From Mycobacterium sp. KBS0706 (GTDB taxonomy: Bacteria; Pseudomonadota; Alphaproteobacteria; DSM-16000; Inquilinaceae): 64,000 nt of DNA. Every line of letters starts with the position of its first letter. Position 1 is the first letter of the stretch. A model generated the notes under the pieces. That model worked only from the letters and a program-made list of their open reading frames with translations, was not told the DNA's origin and searched no databases. The position numbers were made by a program, and so were the translations under genes. The DNA is taken from the NCBI RefSeq assembly GCF_005938675.2, contig NZ_VCCH02000010.1, forward strand, positions 62,001-126,000, given 5' to 3'. Positions 27,094 through 37,963 of the stretch are shown here, piece by piece.

Positions 27094-27714
27094 TCAAGAG
27101 GGTCGGGATTCGAGATCCTGCGGCTCCCGGATCATCGGATAGTAGACGGGCGAGTTCCCGACCTGGACCTCGTCCACGACCTTCCACCCCAGGGTCTGGT
27201 ACAGTCGCACTGCCCCCTTTGTCGTTGCCTCCAGGTACGAGACCTTTCCTGCACGATCGGGGTATTGCAGGGCATACCGGAACAGCGCGGCTCCCAGCCC
27301 CTGCCGCTGGAAGTACGGATCGACTGCGATGACGGATGTATAGAAGTGCGGCTCTTTCGGGTGGTATTGATAGAACCGGTCGAACAATCGGCGGACGTCG
27401 TCTCGATTTGCCGGCAATGTGGTCTTGGTGAGGAAATCGACCAGTTGGCCGTGGTCGCCGTGCTCATCCGGTGTCTGCCACAGCGTCGTGCCCTTGACGC
27501 CGTCCGGGAAGTAGGCGCCGCTGCCGTGCTTGTAGGGCTCGCCGCAATACTCCCTGACGAAGCCTTCGAAGTGTTCGAGATAGCGTTCCGGCTCGGGATA
27601 GATGAACCGCAGGAGCGGGCAGCTGGCAAAGCCGACCTTGAGCGCGGCGTTGCATTGGGCTTCGACAGATGTGGAGACAGTCTTGATGACTGGAGTAGCG
27701 GTGAGCGTGTCCAT
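27094..27714 (-). CDS. GNAT-family N-acetyltransferase (copy 1 of two paralogs)
   Basis: 206 residues from the ATG at 27714, which has GGAG seven bases ahead. The acetyl-CoA pyrophosphate loop is QRQGLGAALF near residue 150, followed by a beta-strand and LYQTLGW near the C-terminus, as in GNAT enzymes. It shares long conserved stretches with the + strand gene at 29587 (PLLRxIY, YCGxxxxxxSGA, RLFDRFxxxHPxxPHxY, VQVGxSPxxxPMIR), so the two arose by duplication. The acceptor substrate is unknown. The upstream leader of about 240 bases carries a promoter and stem-loop also found in front of the DDAH gene. Confidence 0.85.
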   Translation of the reverse strand: MDTLTATPVIKTVSTSVEAQCNAALKVGFASCPLLRFIYPEPERYLEHFEGFVREYCGEPYKHGSGAYFPDGVKGTTLWQTPDEHGDHGQLVDFLTKTTLPANRDDVRRLFDRFYQYHPKEPHFYTSVIAVDPYFQRQGLGAALFRYALQYPDRAGKVSYLEATTKGAVRLYQTLGWKVVDEVQVGNSPVYYPMIREPQDLESRPS

Positions 27715-27923
27715 GGTTGGCTCCGTCAATATTTAAACCAATCGCGACGTCGGCCGCTTCGTCGCGTGCGCGTCAGATCACACAGTCGCGGTGACTGGTA
27801 CGGATCCTGGAAATCGAGCAGAAGAGGCCAAAGCACGGCGACCGCCCAAGAAACGGTCGATAGACGCGATGCTCGCTTGCCGTCTGCGGGAGACATTCAC
27901 GACGTCGAGCGCCGTGAGAAGGT

Positions 27924-27983
27924 TTGAAGCGTCGAGCGCTTCAAGACAGCGCAACCTAAGCGCCAGGTAAGACCCTCTGTCAA
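27924..27983 (-). promoter_or_regulatory. Promoter with downstream stem-loop (copy A) ahead of GNAT gene 1
   Basis: Read on the minus strand: TTGACA at 27983-27978, a 19-base spacer, and TAGGTT at 27958-27953. A perfect dyad follows, TTGAAGCG (27944-27937) and CGCTTCAA (27931-27924), around the five-base loop CTCGA. The same arrangement, with the same spacing, precedes the DDAH gene 3.2 kb away. The dyad could be an operator or an RNA hairpin in the leader. Confidence 0.55.
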
Positions 27984-29484
<1,501 letters not shown>

Positions 29485-29586
29485 ACTTCCGCGAGCATTC
29501 CAGCGAAGTGCGGCCAGCCTCTCCGCTTCAGCAACCCTCTCTCACATCTGCACATCTCCGGATGGTCGAGACCATGGAGGTTCCTC

Positions 29587-30174
29587 ATGAATAGTCCGGT
29601 CGTCAGAAACGTAGCGTCCTCGGATCGAGCCAGGGTCAGTGCCCTGATGACGCTGGCTTTTGCCAGGGACCCGCTTCTTCGCTGGATTTACGAGGAGGGA
29701 GATCGCTACCTCCGGTATTTCGACGGCTTCCTCGATGCCTATTGCGGCGACGCATTCGCCAGTCGCAGCGGCGCGTGCTATGCCGACGTCGGAAGTGGTG
29801 CGGTGCTGTGGGTATCTCCCACGCAGGCCCGGAACGACGACCATCTCAGTTCTTTCCTGCAGAGAACGGCCACCGAATCACGGCGCGACGAAGTCCTCCG
29901 GCTATTCGACCGGTTTGGCGAATGCCATCCCCACACCCCCCATTACTACATCACATTGCTGGGCAGGGACCCCTGCACGCGGAACAGGGGCGTCGGCTCG
30001 GAGCTGATGGACTCCATTTTCGAGCGGTGCGATCGCGAGCGGGCGTTCGCCTATGGCGAGGCCACCACGCCCGCGCATGTCAAATTCTATCGTCGGCTTG
30101 GATGCGAGCTTGTCGATGTCGTTCAGGTCGGAACCTCGCCGAGATTCTTCCCGATGATCCGTGCTCCTCGCTGA
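29587..30174 (+). CDS. GNAT-family N-acetyltransferase (copy 2 of two paralogs)
   Basis: 195 residues. The acetyl-CoA loop is RNRGVGSELM (about residues 137-146), and the C-terminal part (KFYRRLGCELVDVVQVGTSP) matches copy 1 at 27094-27714 closely. The sequence MNSPVVRNVASSDRARVSA starts at an ATG with GGAGG about eight bases ahead. The acceptor is unknown. Its 3' end overlaps the convergent DDAH gene by 52 bases, an unusually long coding overlap on opposite strands. Confidence 0.85.
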   Translation: MNSPVVRNVASSDRARVSALMTLAFARDPLLRWIYEEGDRYLRYFDGFLDAYCGDAFASRSGACYADVGSGAVLWVSPTQARNDDHLSSFLQRTATESRRDEVLRLFDRFGECHPHTPHYYITLLGRDPCTRNRGVGSELMDSIFERCDRERAFAYGEATTPAHVKFYRRLGCELVDVVQVGTSPRFFPMIRAPR

Positions 30175-30959
30175 ATAGGCACGCGCCGATTCCAGCGCAG
30201 CGACAGGCAGGTGAGGCCGGCGTCGAGCTTGCCGATCTCCGACACCGCCAGCGGCACGATGCGATAGCCGAGACGGTCGAGCAGCTCCGCCGTCCGTGGA
30301 AATCCGGCGCCGATCAGCACGACGCCGTTGATCCGCAGGACGTTGGCAGCCGCCTCCTCCTCTGGCGGCACCCGGACCACGCGCATCCCGGGAAAGAACC
30401 CGGCCAGGCGATCGGGCGCAAGAATAGTCTCGCCGTCGAGGAGCGAGCACAGGGTCTTGAAATGCAGTGCGCCGGGCGGTGGGGCCACGATTTCGGCTTT
30501 GCGCCCCAGCCCGGTCAGAAGCCTGGCCAGCTCTGCGGCGCCACGGTCATCGGTGCGGCCGGACAGGCCGATCATCACCGCGCGCGGCGTCACCAGCACG
30601 TCGCCGCCTTCGGCGAAGCCGTCCTCCATCGCCAGCACCCGGTCGAACCGGCGCTGCAGCTCGGGCTCGAGCTCGGCCGCCTCGCCCCGTCGTGACGGCG
30701 CGCCGGGCCGCAGCAGGATCGCGGCCTCGGGGAAGGTCAGCGCCGGATCCTCCATGAACACGGAATCCGGGAAGCCGGCCAGCGGCGGCAGCACGTCGAC
30801 AGCCACGCCGGCCGCTTCCAGGGCGCGGATATAGGCCGCATGCTCGGCCCGAAATCGGCCGATGTCCGGCGCTCCGCGGTCGACCGCCCGGAGCCCGCTG
30901 GCGGCGGAGTCGGCAGGTGCGCGCGCCAATGCACGATCGAACCGGAACACATCTCCCAT
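30123..30959 (-). CDS. Dimethylarginine dimethylaminohydrolase-like (DDAH) amidinotransferase-fold enzyme
   Basis: 278 residues of the arginine deiminase/DDAH superfamily. Catalytic residues are visible: Asp71 (VFMEDPAL), Glu117 (FAEGGD), His166 (ALHFKTL) and nucleophile Cys251 (DAGLTCLSL). DDAH converts N-omega-methylated arginines to citrulline and a methylamine; the family also contains arginine deiminases and other hydrolases. The start at 30959 has GGAG seven bases ahead. About 550 bases upstream, and divergent, lies a PRMT-like methyltransferase gene, which would make methylarginine. The leader carries the duplicated promoter and stem-loop. Confidence 0.86.
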   Translation of the reverse strand: MGDVFRFDRALARAPADSAASGLRAVDRGAPDIGRFRAEHAAYIRALEAAGVAVDVLPPLAGFPDSVFMEDPALTFPEAAILLRPGAPSRRGEAAELEPELQRRFDRVLAMEDGFAEGGDVLVTPRAVMIGLSGRTDDRGAAELARLLTGLGRKAEIVAPPPGALHFKTLCSLLDGETILAPDRLAGFFPGMRVVRVPPEEEAAANVLRINGVVLIGAGFPRTAELLDRLGYRIVPLAVSEIGKLDAGLTCLSLRWNRRVPIQRGARIIGKNLGEVPT

Positions 30960-31118
30960 GGTTTTCTCCAATCTTCAGCTGAAGACTTTGCGGCGTCGAA
31001 GACTGCCCACGGCAAGACGAGCCATTTGCGAGCTACGGCGGAGCGCCGCTGCCGGCCCCGAAATGCCTTTGATGGTGATTTTGACCGGTCGTTCGCAGCG
31101 TCTGGCGCCGCGAGACGA

Positions 31119-31179
31119 TTCAAGGCGTCCAGCGCCTCGAGAAGCGATAGCGTAAGGGGCAACTGCCGTCGCTTGTCAA
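31119..31179 (-). promoter_or_regulatory. Promoter with downstream stem-loop (copy B) ahead of the DDAH gene
   Basis: On the minus strand: TTGACA at 31179-31174, a 19-base spacer, TACGCT at 31154-31149, then TCGAGGCG (31140-31133) and CGCCTTGA (31126-31119) around CTGGA. The arms differ from copy A at a position that keeps pairing (A-T in A, G-C in B), with one G-U wobble elsewhere. Conservation continues beyond the hairpin into a GGCGC stretch. This supports a maintained structure or operator rather than chance. Confidence 0.55.
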
Positions 31180-31200
31180 CACCTCTGGCCGCTTTCAGAG

Positions 31201-31512
31201 CGGTCCAACTGAGATGATGCCGTCCAAGATCGCTTCGTTTCGCTGTTTGGACAATATAATGGGTATTTTTATGAAATACTTCGTTAATGAAATGCCCGGA
31301 ATCGTATTCTTATACATATATAATATTTTTATATAATTGCGGTCATTTCAGTTTTCATTTGAGTCTCCGATCTGAATCGGCATATGGTGGTAATGCAGCC
31401 TGTTCTTGACGTATCGGCCGTCAGGCCGGTGGGCGTGCAGCATCTGCGGACGTATTGCGCTCCAGAAGCCGATCTCCGCCTCTGATGATCATCAGTGGGG
31501 AAGGAGATGGCC
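31201..31512. other. AT-rich gene-free spacer between DDAH and the PRMT-like gene
   Basis: No gene recognised. The stretch 31240-31370 is strikingly AT-rich and contains a perfect inverted repeat TATATAA (31317-31323) and TTATATA (31329-31335) around TATTT. A short GC hairpin, CGGCC-GTCA-GGCCG, lies at 31415-31428. The promoter of the + strand methyltransferase gene should be in this stretch. The composition differs sharply from other spacers in the window, as expected for transferred DNA or a silencer-binding region. Confidence 0.55.
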
Positions 31513-32424
31513 ATGCAAGATGGCGTGATGTCCGCAATCGAACTCAGTCTGACCCAGCCGCTCGGAGACCGAACGTTTCCCACATGGCATTTCGCCATGC
31601 TGAACGATGCGATGCGCAACGGCATCATGGAGGCTGCGATCAAGAGCGCGGGGATTGCCGGGCGGACAGTGTTCGAGATCGGAACGGGGGCCGGCCTGAC
31701 GGCGATCATGCTCGCCCGGTGCGGCGCGGATCGCGTCATGACCTGCGAGATGAACCCCCAACTGTTCGAGATCGCGACCGAGATCGTCCGCTCCAGCCCC
31801 TATGAGCAGCAGATCACCCTCATCAACAAGCCGTCATGCGACGCGATCAATGACGGTGACATTCCCTTCGGCCCGGATTTCATTTTTACCGAAACGATCG
31901 ATTGTGGCGTTGTGGATGAAGGCTTCTACAATATTTCTCACGACATCCAGCGAATTTCATCACCCGAAACGCAAATCCTGCCGCAGAATATTCAGCAGTT
32001 CGGCTTTCTGGTCGACAGCGAGCAGATTTTCGGCCTCAACGCGGTGGGGCTCGTGAACGGCATCGATGTCCGACCGCTCAACCGCTACAGCACCAGATAC
32101 TACTTTCCGGTGCGGGCCCCTCTATACCAATACAAGACACTTTCTGCGACGACCCACCTGCGACAGTATATCTACAGACACACGATGCCGGTGCAGAGTC
32201 ACAGCAACTTCTATGTGCATTCCGAAGGCTGGTGCCACGGCATGCTGTCCTACTTCTGCGCGCATTTCGGCCACCATGTCATCAGCAACGACGTGGCCGC
32301 TTCGAGCCATTGGCACCAGGCCTTTCATCCGCTCAGGCACCCGGTCAAGCTGATCGCCGGCGAGACCTATCGGGCGGCGTTCTCTCCGTTCGGGCATCTG
32401 ATGCTGGACCACGCACCGTCTTGA
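31513..32424 (+). CDS. Protein arginine methyltransferase (PRMT)-like methyltransferase
   Basis: 303 residues. Class I SAM motifs: FEIGTGAGLTA (residues 54-64) and an acidic CEM (Glu79). PRMT-specific traits follow: TETIDCGVVDEGF has Glu127 and Glu136 spaced as in the double-E loop of PRMTs (closest to the PRMT7 form), and SHWHQAFHPLRHPVKLIAGE (265-284) matches the THW loop plus barrel strand. The region after residue 140 would form the PRMT beta-barrel. The family N-methylates arginine guanidino groups; SznE-type bacterial members act on free arginine, so substrate is open. The ATG at 31513 has AAGGAG six bases ahead. It neighbours a DDAH-like gene. Confidence 0.82.
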   Translation: MQDGVMSAIELSLTQPLGDRTFPTWHFAMLNDAMRNGIMEAAIKSAGIAGRTVFEIGTGAGLTAIMLARCGADRVMTCEMNPQLFEIATEIVRSSPYEQQITLINKPSCDAINDGDIPFGPDFIFTETIDCGVVDEGFYNISHDIQRISSPETQILPQNIQQFGFLVDSEQIFGLNAVGLVNGIDVRPLNRYSTRYYFPVRAPLYQYKTLSATTHLRQYIYRHTMPVQSHSNFYVHSEGWCHGMLSYFCAHFGHHVISNDVAASSHWHQAFHPLRHPVKLIAGETYRAAFSPFGHLMLDHAPS

Positions 32425-32472
32425 CCGAACGGGATAGCCCGCCGCCTCCGCCAACCCGCTGGAACGGCGGGA

Positions 32473-33363
32473 TCAGAACAGGCTGGTCTCCTTGAGATAG
32501 GCCGTGGCGACCGCCTCGATCGTCTTCTTCTGCACGTCGACCTCGCCGTTCAGGCGCTGCATCGTCGCGTCGTCCAGCCGGGTGGCCAGGGTTTCGAGCA
32601 AGGGCTTGAGGTCGGGGTGGGCGGCGAGCACGTCCTGCCGCACCACCGGCACCAGCGCATAGTTCGGGAAGAAGCCCTTGTCGTCCTTCAGCAAAGTCAG
32701 GTCCATCGCGGCGATGCGGCCGTCGGTCGCCGCCACCACCGAGACGTCGACATCGCCATTGGCCAGGGCCGGGAACACCAGGCCGATCTCCATCGGCCGG
32801 ACATTGGCGCGGCCGGCCTTGAAGTCGTAGGCCTTCTGCAGGCCCAGGAGGCCGTCCTCGCGCTTGGGGAACTCGGCCGTCGTCGCCATCACCGGGTCCT
32901 TGCCGTCCTTGTAGGCGGCGGCCAGGTCGGACAGCGTCGCCATGCCGTCGGTCTTCGGATTGCCCTTGCGGACGGCCAGGGCATAGGTGTTGTTCGCCTT
33001 GGACGGGGCCAGCCAGACCAGCCCCTTGGCGCCGTCCAACTCCTTGACCTTGGCGTAGGTCTCGTCCGGCGTGAGCTTGTCGGTGACCTTGTTGAAGGTG
33101 ACCAGCGAAGTGCCGGTGTATTCCCAGTACAGGTCGACCTCGCCGCTTTCCAGGGCGGCGCGGACGATGTTGGTGCCCATGCCGTCCTTCTTCTCGACGG
33201 TGTAGCCCTTGCTCTCCAGCAGCTGCTTGGTCATCTCGGCCAGCAGGAACTGCTCGGTGAAGTCCTTGCCGCCGACGGTCAGCTCGGCCGCGCCGGCGGC
33301 GCCGCCGAAGGCCAGCAGCGCGATCGCCGACAGGATCGCGCGCTTCAACGTCGTCTTGATCAT
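32473..33363 (-). CDS. Quaternary amine ABC transporter substrate-binding protein (OsmF/OpuCC-like)
   Basis: 296 residues with a signal peptide (cleavage near AGAAEL). The mature part begins TVGGKDFTEQFLLAEM and includes DLYWEYTGTSL and VRKGNPKTDG, features of the OpuAC/YehZ family that binds glycine betaine, choline and related compounds in the periplasm. GGGAG lies seven bases before the ATG. It is the last gene of a run permease-ATPase-permease-binding protein, the OsmU/OpuC arrangement. A short inverted repeat (CCCGCCG/CGGCGGG at 32438-32471) lies at its 3' end. Confidence 0.9.
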   Translation of the reverse strand: MIKTTLKRAILSAIALLAFGGAAGAAELTVGGKDFTEQFLLAEMTKQLLESKGYTVEKKDGMGTNIVRAALESGEVDLYWEYTGTSLVTFNKVTDKLTPDETYAKVKELDGAKGLVWLAPSKANNTYALAVRKGNPKTDGMATLSDLAAAYKDGKDPVMATTAEFPKREDGLLGLQKAYDFKAGRANVRPMEIGLVFPALANGDVDVSVVAATDGRIAAMDLTLLKDDKGFFPNYALVPVVRQDVLAAHPDLKPLLETLATRLDDATMQRLNGEVDVQKKTIEAVATAYLKETSLF

Positions 33364-33389
33364 CGTCTTGCTCCCTGCTTGTTGTGTCT

Positions 33390-34165
33390 TCACCGCAGCG
33401 GATTGATCCCGCGCGGCACGAGATGGATCTGCAGCCGGCCGACGACGAAGTCGGTCAGCACGGCCAGCAGTGCCGTCGGGATCGCGCCGGCCAGCATCAT
33501 CGGCAGGTCGTTCAGGGCGATGCCGGTGAAGATCAGCTCGCCCAGTCCGCCGGCGCCGATCAGGAAGGCCAGCGGCGCGGTGCCGACGCAGATCGAAAGG
33601 GCGGTGCGGATGCCGCCGAAGATGACGAACAGCGCGTTCGGCAGCTCGACCCGCCAGAACACCTGGGCGGGGGTCATGCCCATGCCGCGCGCCGCCTCGA
33701 TCAGCGGCGTCGGTACGTTGCGCAGCCCGGCATAGGTGTTGCGGACGATCGGCAGCAGCGTCGCCGCCCACAGGCCGAACACCGATGGCACCGTGCCGAT
33801 GCCGAGGACGGTCATGCACAAGGCCAGCACCGCCAGCGTCGGAATCGTGGTGCCGAGGTTGAACACCTGCAGAACCAGCTCGGCCGAGCGGCGAAAGGCG
33901 GGGCGGGACAGCACAGCACCTGCCGGCACACCGGCCAGGATGGCGAGGCCGCCGGCCCAGGCCACCAGCTCGACATGCTGGATGCCGAGGAAGACGATGT
34001 CCTCCTGATAGGACAGGATCTCGGCCGGCATGTCGCTCGCCAGTCCCCACAGCACCGCCGCCGCGGCCAGCAGCAGCCACAGCAGCACCGCGATGCCCGG
34101 GACGGGGAGGGGGCGCCCGCCCGTCAGCGGCGCCGCCCGTCCGGTCCAGGCCTTGCCGACATCGC

Positions 34166-34169
<4 letters not shown>
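33390..34169 (-). CDS. Quaternary amine ABC transporter permease (OsmY/W-like)
   Basis: 259 residues with about six membrane segments and the binding-protein-dependent permease loop LIEAARGMGMTPAQVFWRVE near residue 150. Homologous to the YehW/YehY and OpuCB/OpuCD permeases. The start overlaps the ATPase stop by four bases (34166-34169), and the binding-protein gene follows after 26 bases. It forms the channel together with the second permease of the same operon. Confidence 0.9.
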
Positions 34170-35283
<1,114 letters not shown>

Positions 35284-35287
<4 letters not shown>

Positions 35288-35946
35288 GCCAGGGCTCCCC
35301 GGGCCAGACCCTTCGAGGTCAGCCGCCGCTGCGCCAGCGCCAACAGCAGGTCGACCGCGATCGCCAGCAGCGACACCGCGACCGCGCCGGTGATCAGCTG
35401 CCGTGGGTCCGACTGGCTGATGCCGCGGGCGATGAAGGTGCCCAGGCCGCCGGCGCCGATATAGGCGGCGATCGCCGTCACCCCGATATTCATCACCGCG
35501 GCGGTGCGGATGCCGGCCATGATCACCGGGATCGCCAGCGGGATCTCGACCTGGCGCAGCCGCTGCCGCGCGTTCATGCCCATGCCGATGCCGGCCTCGC
35601 GCAGCGCCGGGTCGACATCGACGATGGCGGTGTAGGTGTTGCGGATGATCGGCAACTGCGAATAGAGGATGATCGCGATCACGGCCGGCACGGTGCCGAT
35701 GCCGTGGCCGATCGGCGACAGCAGCGGGATCATCAGCCCAAACAGCGCCACCGACGGCACGGTGATCATCATCGAGGCGAGGTACAGGACCACATCCGCC
35801 GCCCGCTTCGACTGGGTGATGGCGATGCCGATCGGGACGGCGGTGACGATCGCGATCGACACTGCGACAGCGACGATCGACACATGCTCCAGCGCCCGCG
35901 CCGCGATCACGTCCAGGTTGTCATAGGCAAAGGTGAGCGTGTCCAT
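35284..35946 (-). CDS. Quaternary amine ABC transporter permease (second subunit)
   Basis: 220 residues with about six membrane helices. The cytoplasmic loop REAGIGMGMNARQRLRQVEI (residues ~119-138) and GVTAIAAYIGAGGLG identify the OpuCB/ProW-type permease. A longer open frame extending upstream overlaps the isochorismatase gene in another phase; the ATG at 35946 gives the family-typical start. Separated by 29 bases from the upstream hydrolase gene, it is probably in the same operon. Confidence 0.9.
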
Positions 35947-35975
35947 CAGGCCGCGTTCCCGTGATTGCCTCGCCG

Positions 35976-36659
35976 TCAAAGGTCGAGATAGAGCCTCGCC
36001 GCGTTGTCGTAGGTGAAGCGCAGCGGCACCGATCCCTGCACCCGCCAGGCCTCGACCGTCTCGCCGGCCATCAGCCGGCAGGCGCTTGCGGTGTCGACCA
36101 CGGCGCCGCCATAGAGGCGATTGGCGAGGTTGAGGATGGCGGTCTGGTGCATCGCCGCGCTGCCGCTGCCGCAGGAATCCTTCACCAGGGCGACGCGGAA
36201 GCCGAGATCGACCGCGTCCTTCACGGTCTGGGCGATGCAGGCCTCGGTCCACACCCCGGCGACGAACAGCCATTCGGTACCCAGCGGCGCCAGCCTGTCG
36301 GCCAGCCCGCCGCCGGCGAAGGCGCTGGCGTCGGCCTTCACCAGCACCGGCTCGCGGTCGGTCGGTCCGACCTCGGCGCAGATATCCGACATCGGGTCGT
36401 TGGCGTCGCTGAAGGCCGAGCTGCCGTCCGCCATCACCGGGTGGAACGGCTTCGCCCGCTGTGCCGCCAGGTCGACGACATAGGCGGAGTGCAGCACCGG
36501 GATTCCGGCCGCCCGCGCCGCCCGCTGCAGGCGCCGGACGCTGCCGATCAGCGCGTCGAAGCCCTCGACCAGGTAGCGGTGGTCGCGGCGGTGCTCCTCC
36601 TGCAGGTCGACGAACAGCGCCGCCGCCTTGCCCGGGTCGATGGTCAGGGCCGTCCGCAT
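35976..36659 (-). CDS. Isochorismatase-family cysteine hydrolase
   Basis: 227 residues. The catalytic triad of the family is visible: Asp18 (FVDLQ), Lys108 (LVKADASAF) and Cys141 (WTEACI), with the preceding GVWTEAC turn. Such enzymes hydrolyse amides such as N-carbamoyl amines, nicotinamide or biuret-like compounds, or enol ethers. The start ATG overlaps the stop of the M24 gene (TGATG), so both are made together. Its place between a DddP-like M24 enzyme and a betaine-type importer suggests a step in breakdown of an imported quaternary amine or related amide. The substrate is unknown. Confidence 0.85.
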   Translation of the reverse strand: MRTALTIDPGKAAALFVDLQEEHRRDHRYLVEGFDALIGSVRRLQRAARAAGIPVLHSAYVVDLAAQRAKPFHPVMADGSSAFSDANDPMSDICAEVGPTDREPVLVKADASAFAGGGLADRLAPLGTEWLFVAGVWTEACIAQTVKDAVDLGFRVALVKDSCGSGSAAMHQTAILNLANRLYGGAVVDTASACRLMAGETVEAWRVQGSVPLRFTYDNAARLYLDL

Positions 36660-37963
36660 CACACTTCCCCGTCCAGGAACTCGTCCTCATAAGGGAAGCG
36701 CGACAGCACCTCCGTGCCGGTCTCGGTGATCAGGATCTCGTCCTCCAGCTTGACGCCCTCGCGCCCGCCCTTCTCGCCGACATAGCTCTCGACGCTGACC
36801 ACCATGCCGGGCAGCAGGTGGCCCTCGCGGCCGTAGGTCGCGTAGTCCATGGCATGGGCGATGAACGGCGTCTCGCCATGCATGCCGACGCCATGCATGA
36901 CCGAGGTGTAGCGCTGCTCGACGAAGCGGTCGGGGATGGTCCAGGCCTTCTCCGCCACCTCGCGGAAGGCCATGCCCGGCCTGACGATGCCGATATTGTG
37001 CCGGATCTGGTCATGCGCCATCCGGTACAGCATCTTCTGGTAGTCGGACGGCCGGCCCGGCCCGCAGCGGAAGGTGCGCGAGAAGTCGGAATAGTAGCCG
37101 TAGCAGCCGATCGTGTCGGTATCGAGCGCCACCAGCTCGCCCGGCCGGACCTTGCGGCCGCCGGCCTCGCTGAACCAGGGGTTGGTGCGCTGGCCGGAGG
37201 TCAAGAGGCGGGTCTCGATGAACTCGCCGCCCTGGCGGATCACCTCGTGATACATGATGGCGAACAGCTCGTTCTCCGAGATGCCGGGCCTGATCGCCTC
37301 GCGCACCGCGGCGACCGCCGCCTCGGCCCCGGCCATCGAGGCCTGCAGGCACTTGATCTCCTCCGGGGTCTTGACTGCGCGCACGGCCAGGATCTCGCCC
37401 TGGCAGTCGGTGACGGTGCAGCCGCGCTTCTCCAGCGCCAGGGCGTGCAGGTGGTTGCAGCGGTCGAGGCCGATCTTCATCGACCCGCCGCCATGGGCCC
37501 GGAGCAGCTCGGCGATCTCGTCGGCGAAGGGGCCGGCGCTCTCGCCGTCCCGGTTCGACACCGACGACCAGACCAGCTTCGACGGCCGTGCCTCGTCGAC
37601 CGTGTCGAGCACGGTGGAGACGTGGTAGCTCTGCGGATATTCGAACAGCACGATCGGCCCTGCGGCGGGCACGAAGAAGTAGCGGGTCGAGTTGCGCAGG
37701 AAGTAGCCGAACATGTTGCGCGACCCGGTGGCGTAGCGCTGGTTGTACGGGTCGAACAGCACCACCGCGCCATAGCCGGAATCGGCCATCCAGCGGCGCA
37801 GCCGGGCCAGCCGGCCCTGGCGCAGCGCATGGACGTCGACGAAGGACGGCTCGGTGTCCGACAGCCACATGCCGCCGGATTCGTCCGCGGTCGCCGGATG
37901 GCGCATCCGCTCGGCGAAATCGACGTCCTCGACGCTGTCGGGGTTGAACACCACGATGCTCAT
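36659..37963 (-). CDS. M24-family (creatinase-fold) enzyme related to DddP
   Basis: 434 residues: N-terminal creatinase-like domain (about 1-195) and C-terminal pita-bread metal domain. Candidate ligands are Asp281, Asp283, Asp293, His357, Glu392 and Glu407; their spacing (+2, +10, +64, +35, +15) equals that remembered for DMSP lyase DddP (D295, D297, D307, H371, E406, E421). Stretches such as ETRLLTSGQRTNPWF and KLEDEILITETG also resemble DddP. However, the Asp six residues after the ligand His that is reported as catalytic in DddP is Gly363 here (HGVGMHG), so DMSP cleavage is doubtful. It may be a peptidase or act on another betaine-like compound. It is the first gene of the uptake operon. 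Confidence 0.82.
   Translation of the reverse strand: MSIVVFNPDSVEDVDFAERMRHPATADESGGMWLSDTEPSFVDVHALRQGRLARLRRWMADSGYGAVVLFDPYNQRYATGSRNMFGYFLRNSTRYFFVPAAGPIVLFEYPQSYHVSTVLDTVDEARPSKLVWSSVSNRDGESAGPFADEIAELLRAHGGGSMKIGLDRCNHLHALALEKRGCTVTDCQGEILAVRAVKTPEEIKCLQASMAGAEAAVAAVREAIRPGISENELFAIMYHEVIRQGGEFIETRLLTSGQRTNPWFSEAGGRKVRPGELVALDTDTIGCYGYYSDFSRTFRCGPGRPSDYQKMLYRMAHDQIRHNIGIVRPGMAFREVAEKAWTIPDRFVEQRYTSVMHGVGMHGETPFIAHAMDYATYGREGHLLPGMVVSVESYVGEKGGREGVKLEDEILITETGTEVLSRFPYEDEFLDGEV

Follow-up and report, generated by a model that had tools for sequence, protein, structure and literature searches.

A putative SznE-like arginine methyltransferase gene beside a second dimethylargininase gene on an acquired insert in Mycobacterium sp. 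KBS0706

Can one bacterial locus encode both an enzyme that makes methylarginine and an enzyme that destroys it? This question arises from a 64,000-nucleotide stretch of Mycobacterium sp. KBS0706 DNA (hereafter the window), in which a first-pass annotation described a gene resembling protein arginine methyltransferases (PRMTs) with a divergently oriented dimethylargininase (DDAH) gene as its neighbor, and proposed that the pair implies a bacterial methylarginine cycle or a signal or toxin based on methylarginine. Both open reading frames are present where they had been annotated, so that the observation is confirmed, and the interpretation placed on it is partly supported. The relevant features of the window are the following:

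27094 to 27714, minus strand: left-flank GNAT, also found in sister genome G005 (83.5% amino acid identity)
27715 to 32472: insert of ~4.76 kb, with flanks conserved in the genus
28477 to 29484, plus strand: aldo/keto reductase in the insert (PF00248, 1.5e-58)
29587 to 30174, plus strand: puromycin-N-acetyltransferase-like GNAT in the insert, whose 3' end overlaps the 3' end of the DDAH gene by 52 bp
30123 to 30959, minus strand: second DDAH (DDAH2) of the genome, 278 aa, catalytic residues complete
30972 to 31512: A+T-rich region between the two divergent genes (GC about 0.48-0.50 at 31.0-31.6 kb)
31513 to 32424, plus strand: putative SznE-like/PRMT7-9-like arginine N-methyltransferase, 303 aa
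32473 to 33381, minus strand: right-flank OpuAC-type substrate-binding protein of a betaine-type ABC transporter (92-95% in the genus)

The methyltransferase frame is open from 31495, and the Shine-Dalgarno-like sequence GGAAGGAG lies immediately 5' of the ATG at 31513, which argues that this ATG is the correct start. Numbered from it, Glu127 and Glu136 form the double-E pair and Ser265-His266-Trp267 the THW-type loop, which bears out the double-E positions and the SHW motif of the first-pass annotation; an alignment of 28 sequences of bacterial relatives shows no variation at E127 and W267 and almost none at E136 and H266. A phmmer search against solved structures returned PRMT9 first (8e-24), followed by T. 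brucei PRMT7 (7.5e-17), and these sequence matches lie far beyond chance. No Pfam PRMT model was reached by this protein, which gave only weak generic methyltransferase matches.

An AlphaFold2 model, built from an alignment in which plasmid-borne rows were left out, reached a pLDDT of 90.9 and a pTM of 0.85. Foldseek identified T. brucei PRMT7 as its best solved match (3.9e-24), and VIA-align gave Z scores of 28.6 over 291 residues for the same protein and 28.0 over 280 residues for human PRMT9. Since the aligned part takes in nearly the whole modeled chain, the methyltransferase core as well as the barrel, the PRMT barrel, whose absence would have counted against the first-pass annotation, is present in the model. 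The two domains expected of the PRMT superfamily, first a Rossmann-type SAM domain and then a beta-barrel, are both there, as are the double-E and THW-type loops, and the gene encodes a complete PRMT fold. The enzyme has this fold, motif I, the double-E loop, and the SHW loop in common with PRMT7 and PRMT9, but it is only 20-24% identical to them and consists of a single catalytic module with no TPR domain. A role in a defense system was considered and rejected, as the only PADLOC match of the methyltransferase, to mad2, is weak and partial (1.1e-7, residues 33-125) and was taken as a generic SAM-domain match.

The view that such enzymes are rare in bacteria, taken in the first-pass annotation, proved too strong, because 37 of the 385 alphaproteobacterial species sampled have a PRMT relative at E <= 1e-25. 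Most of these relatives are long multidomain proteins encoded in frames of 500-700 residues. About one-tenth of the sampled alphaproteobacterial species have proteins of ~500-700 residues in which the PRMT domain is C-terminal (L006, L007, L008, and L049-L075); in L006, the N-terminal half matches engineered TPR proteins and the rest matches PRMT7 (6.7e-45) and PRMT9 (1.7e-32).

The first-pass annotation also drew a comparison with SznE, and this comparison holds. In streptozotocin biosynthesis, SznF receives N-omega-methyl-L-arginine from SznE/StzE, an arginine guanidino-methyltransferase (PMC11705231). We collected relatives of the window enzyme, 12 of them at 41-47% identity from a species-genome collection and others from plasmids and sampled genomes, and a maximum-likelihood tree placed the window enzyme inside a compact bacterial clade (support 100/100), as sister (92/90) to eight enzymes encoded beside SznF-like genes; a ninth SznF-linked enzyme, L045, falls just outside that sister group. 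One of the SznF-like partners gave a match of 5.5e-113 to the solved structure of SznF, and another has haem-oxygenase-like and cupin domains according to Pfam. The usual neighbors of the SznF-linked relatives encode a Rieske protein, an ATP-grasp protein, Ada, and a DNA-repair oxygenase. The window enzyme thus shares the PRMT fold and the compact size of SznE/StzE, whereas its gene has no adjacent SznF, Rieske protein, or Ada gene and adjoins a DDAH gene instead.

Gene sets of the szn type (SznE-like, SznF-like, and mostly Rieske) were found at L014, L015, L016, L044, L045, L048, and L010-L012, several of them with Ada or a DNA-repair oxygenase, in Halomonadaceae, Xenorhabdus mauleonii, a Methylobacterium indicum plasmid, a Pantoea dispersa plasmid, and a 1.3 Mb alphaproteobacterial genome. 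Other compact PRMT genes (L013, L017, L018, L019, L021, and L084) have a divergently oriented neighbor that encodes a conserved protein of ~250-285 aa, which had no Pfam match in the three tested and whose model (pLDDT 74, pTM 0.51) weakly resembles PAS/LOV domains.

A search for SznF found none in the genome of the window or in its five sampled genus mates, while four control genomes gave hits. An szn-type cluster in this genome was therefore rejected, and methylarginine made here would not be consumed via SznF. The window enzyme is most likely an orphan SznE-type methyltransferase, a placement made through its SznF-linked relatives. The gene context of the relatives at 41-47% identity suggests that free arginine would be its substrate, and we infer that it would be monomethylated.

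A different substrate is conceivable, namely a bacterial protein, in which case the DDAH would clear the methylarginine released by proteolysis, as in eukaryotes. The nearest solved structures, PRMT7 and PRMT9, are consistent with such a true protein arginine methyltransferase, and the alphaproteobacterial TPR-PRMT proteins look protein-modifying. The tree, however, groups the window enzyme with the compact SznF-linked enzymes and not with the long TPR-PRMT type, and its 303 residues include neither a TPR domain nor any other obvious substrate-docking part. We consider protein methylation quite improbable.

The neighboring DDAH matches P. aeruginosa DDAH over its full length (1.4e-47). The NCBIfam dimethylargininase model matched it at 3e-49 with 168 bits against a cut-off of 450, a shortfall that bars the equivalog name but not DDAH homology. 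All four residues noted in the first-pass annotation (the substrate-binding Asp71 and the catalytic Glu117, His166, and Cys251) are in place, and they are common to a DDAH encoded in the genus core. This core DDAH is found in all six genus genomes sampled (on contig C221 in this genome), at a locus that is syntenic with 87-90% DNA identity. Because the core protein begins at the corresponding point, the start of the window DDAH is most likely ATG 30959 and not TTG 30971. The reading frame of the window copy continues past the position of the core stop codon, and the protein carries a 22-aa C-terminal extension that is absent from the core copies; this extension and its being the second copy in the genome also set it apart from P. 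aeruginosa DDAH.

Given that the window DDAH is 77-80% identical to every core copy, either it separated from them earlier than the sampled species separated from one another, or it has an outside origin. With dN/dS at about 0.27-0.32 relative to the core copies, it is not an obvious pseudogene; it is intact and under net purifying selection. DDAH enzymes accept N-omega-methyl-L-arginine (L-NMMA) and convert it to citrulline and methylamine (PMC11659421), and the window DDAH may act on the product of the methyltransferase.

The insert genes have a GC3 of 0.71-0.82, lower than that of the transporter and permease genes in the flanks (0.92-0.97). On the right side, sister genomes align with the window at 92-94% up to 32473, in the gene for the ABC transporter binding protein; on the left side, they align at 92-94% up to 27106 and then at 80% through the GNAT gene to 27714. 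Since the GC3 of this left-flank GNAT gene is low as well (0.77), the gene may have arrived before the insert. G005 carries both flanks in consistent orientation, each close to the end of a different contig, and the distance between them across the contig break appears to be at least 50 kb, compared with 4.76 kb here, which indicates that the insert site (27714-32473) is variable. The insert is acquired DNA in a variable spot between a GNAT gene and an ABC transporter. The assembly has an estimated contamination of 9.8%; the contig itself is not foreign, because both flanks match the genus, but a join error is not fully excluded.

The genes brought in by the insert encode the aldo/keto reductase, one GNAT, the DDAH, and the PRMT relative. 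Of the two GNATs that had been annotated as accompanying the pair, the one at 29587-30174 indeed belongs to the insert, while the one at 27094-27714 lies outside it and is present in a sister genome; the two are 40% identical to each other. At the insert, a scan for flanking repeats and for the ends of insertion sequences found only short chance-like repeats, and no consensus sigma-70 promoter was found in 30972-31512, nor any terminator around the methyltransferase gene. A phage origin was rejected, as no PRMT relative occurred among the phage records or viral contigs. To the right of the insert, the genus-conserved region at 32473-37963 encodes the betaine-type ABC transporter, an isochorismatase-like hydrolase, and an M24/creatinase-fold protein that matches DddP-type models at 1.3e-95, below the cut-off.

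With the two enzymes placed in this way, we tentatively propose, at somewhat less than even confidence, that they act on the same molecule. The methyltransferase would use SAM to methylate free L-arginine on its guanidino group, yielding L-NMMA, and the second DDAH would hydrolyze L-NMMA to citrulline and methylamine, thereby limiting or recycling it. This proposal is based on the PRMT fold with its active-site residues, the intact DDAH, the adjacency of the two genes on an acquired insert, and the position of the methyltransferase beside SznF-linked enzymes. That the two activities are coupled may be surmised from the adjacency in one genome and from the status of the DDAH as a second copy, one that is additional to the genus-core copy, shows no decay, and shares its insert with the methyltransferase. 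On the other hand, a cell that both made and destroyed one molecule would gain nothing from it without regulation.

It is nearly as likely that the two genes are chance neighbors, i.e., that the orphan methyltransferase of SznE-like type and the additional DDAH arrived independently in a gene-collecting spot and serve separate processes, with the DDAH allowing external methylarginine to be used as a nitrogen source. DDAH was found in none of the 34 other genomes with PRMT relatives, several of which are incomplete assemblies (13 with the nearest relatives and 21 further ones, for which controls were positive), and each of the five further genus members sampled has the core DDAH but no PRMT. 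The pairing is therefore not conserved, and only this genome links PRMT and DDAH; the search for such neighborhoods elsewhere, the check named in the first-pass annotation, thus contradicts a conserved methylarginine cycle, and a conserved PRMT-DDAH system was rejected for lack of co-occurrence in more than one lineage, while a local make-and-break pair is plausible but unproven.

Chance neighborhood also agrees with the variability of the site and with the arrangement of the two genes, which are divergent, about 550 bp apart, and do not form an operon. Against it, two adjacent methylarginine-handling genes in a genome with two clear DDAHs would be unlikely a priori, an argument that is weakened by having been chosen after the fact. 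Both enzyme types are known, and the arrangement in this genome was not found described: in agreement with the first-pass annotation, our literature search, with most subscription journals outside its reach, returned no description of a bacterial PRMT-DDAH pairing.

The insert could also be the remnant or a module of a natural-product cluster, in which methylarginine would serve as a small-molecule building block and the GNAT and DDAH would provide self-protection. Relatives of the window enzyme are encoded in szn-type clusters or, in one case (L020), behind an NRPS-like gene, and the insert GNAT resembles puromycin N-acetyltransferase (1.1e-8). Moreover, the saskemycin cluster was located through an SznE relative, and saskemycin contains N-methylagmatine units (PMC12637814). 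The SznE-like enzyme of that cluster, likened here by its description, is a proposed methylarginine maker for a non-streptozotocin product and has acetyltransferase genes nearby, but it sits in a full antibiotic gene cluster, unlike the window enzyme (PMC12637814). No synthetase, oxygenase, or exporter is seen in the insert, and the genome has no SznF. We regard this explanation as unlikely; like protein methylation, it is less likely than either a coupled pair or chance neighbors. The gene in Candidatus Marithrix (L020:3389-8852) is a compact PRMT gene located directly 3' of a gene for a 1544-aa protein that begins, as judged only by visual inspection, with a part similar to an NRPS condensation domain.

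L-NMMA is an inhibitor of nitric oxide synthases. A more elaborate form of the coupled pair, in which free L-NMMA would be released as an inhibitor or signal and the second DDAH would be dedicated to protecting or resetting the producer, is improbable; the targets could be, for example, nitric oxide synthases or the arginine-using enzymes of neighbors.

Whatever the role of the pair, PRMT relatives are widespread in Alphaproteobacteria, comprising the long TPR-PRMT type and a compact SznE-like clade, the genes of which occur in at least two different contexts. If the pair does work as proposed, it would constitute a bacterial free-methylarginine route outside streptozotocin-type pathways, with its product destroyed by a dedicated second DDAH, and a producer of L-NMMA could affect its hosts or neighbors.
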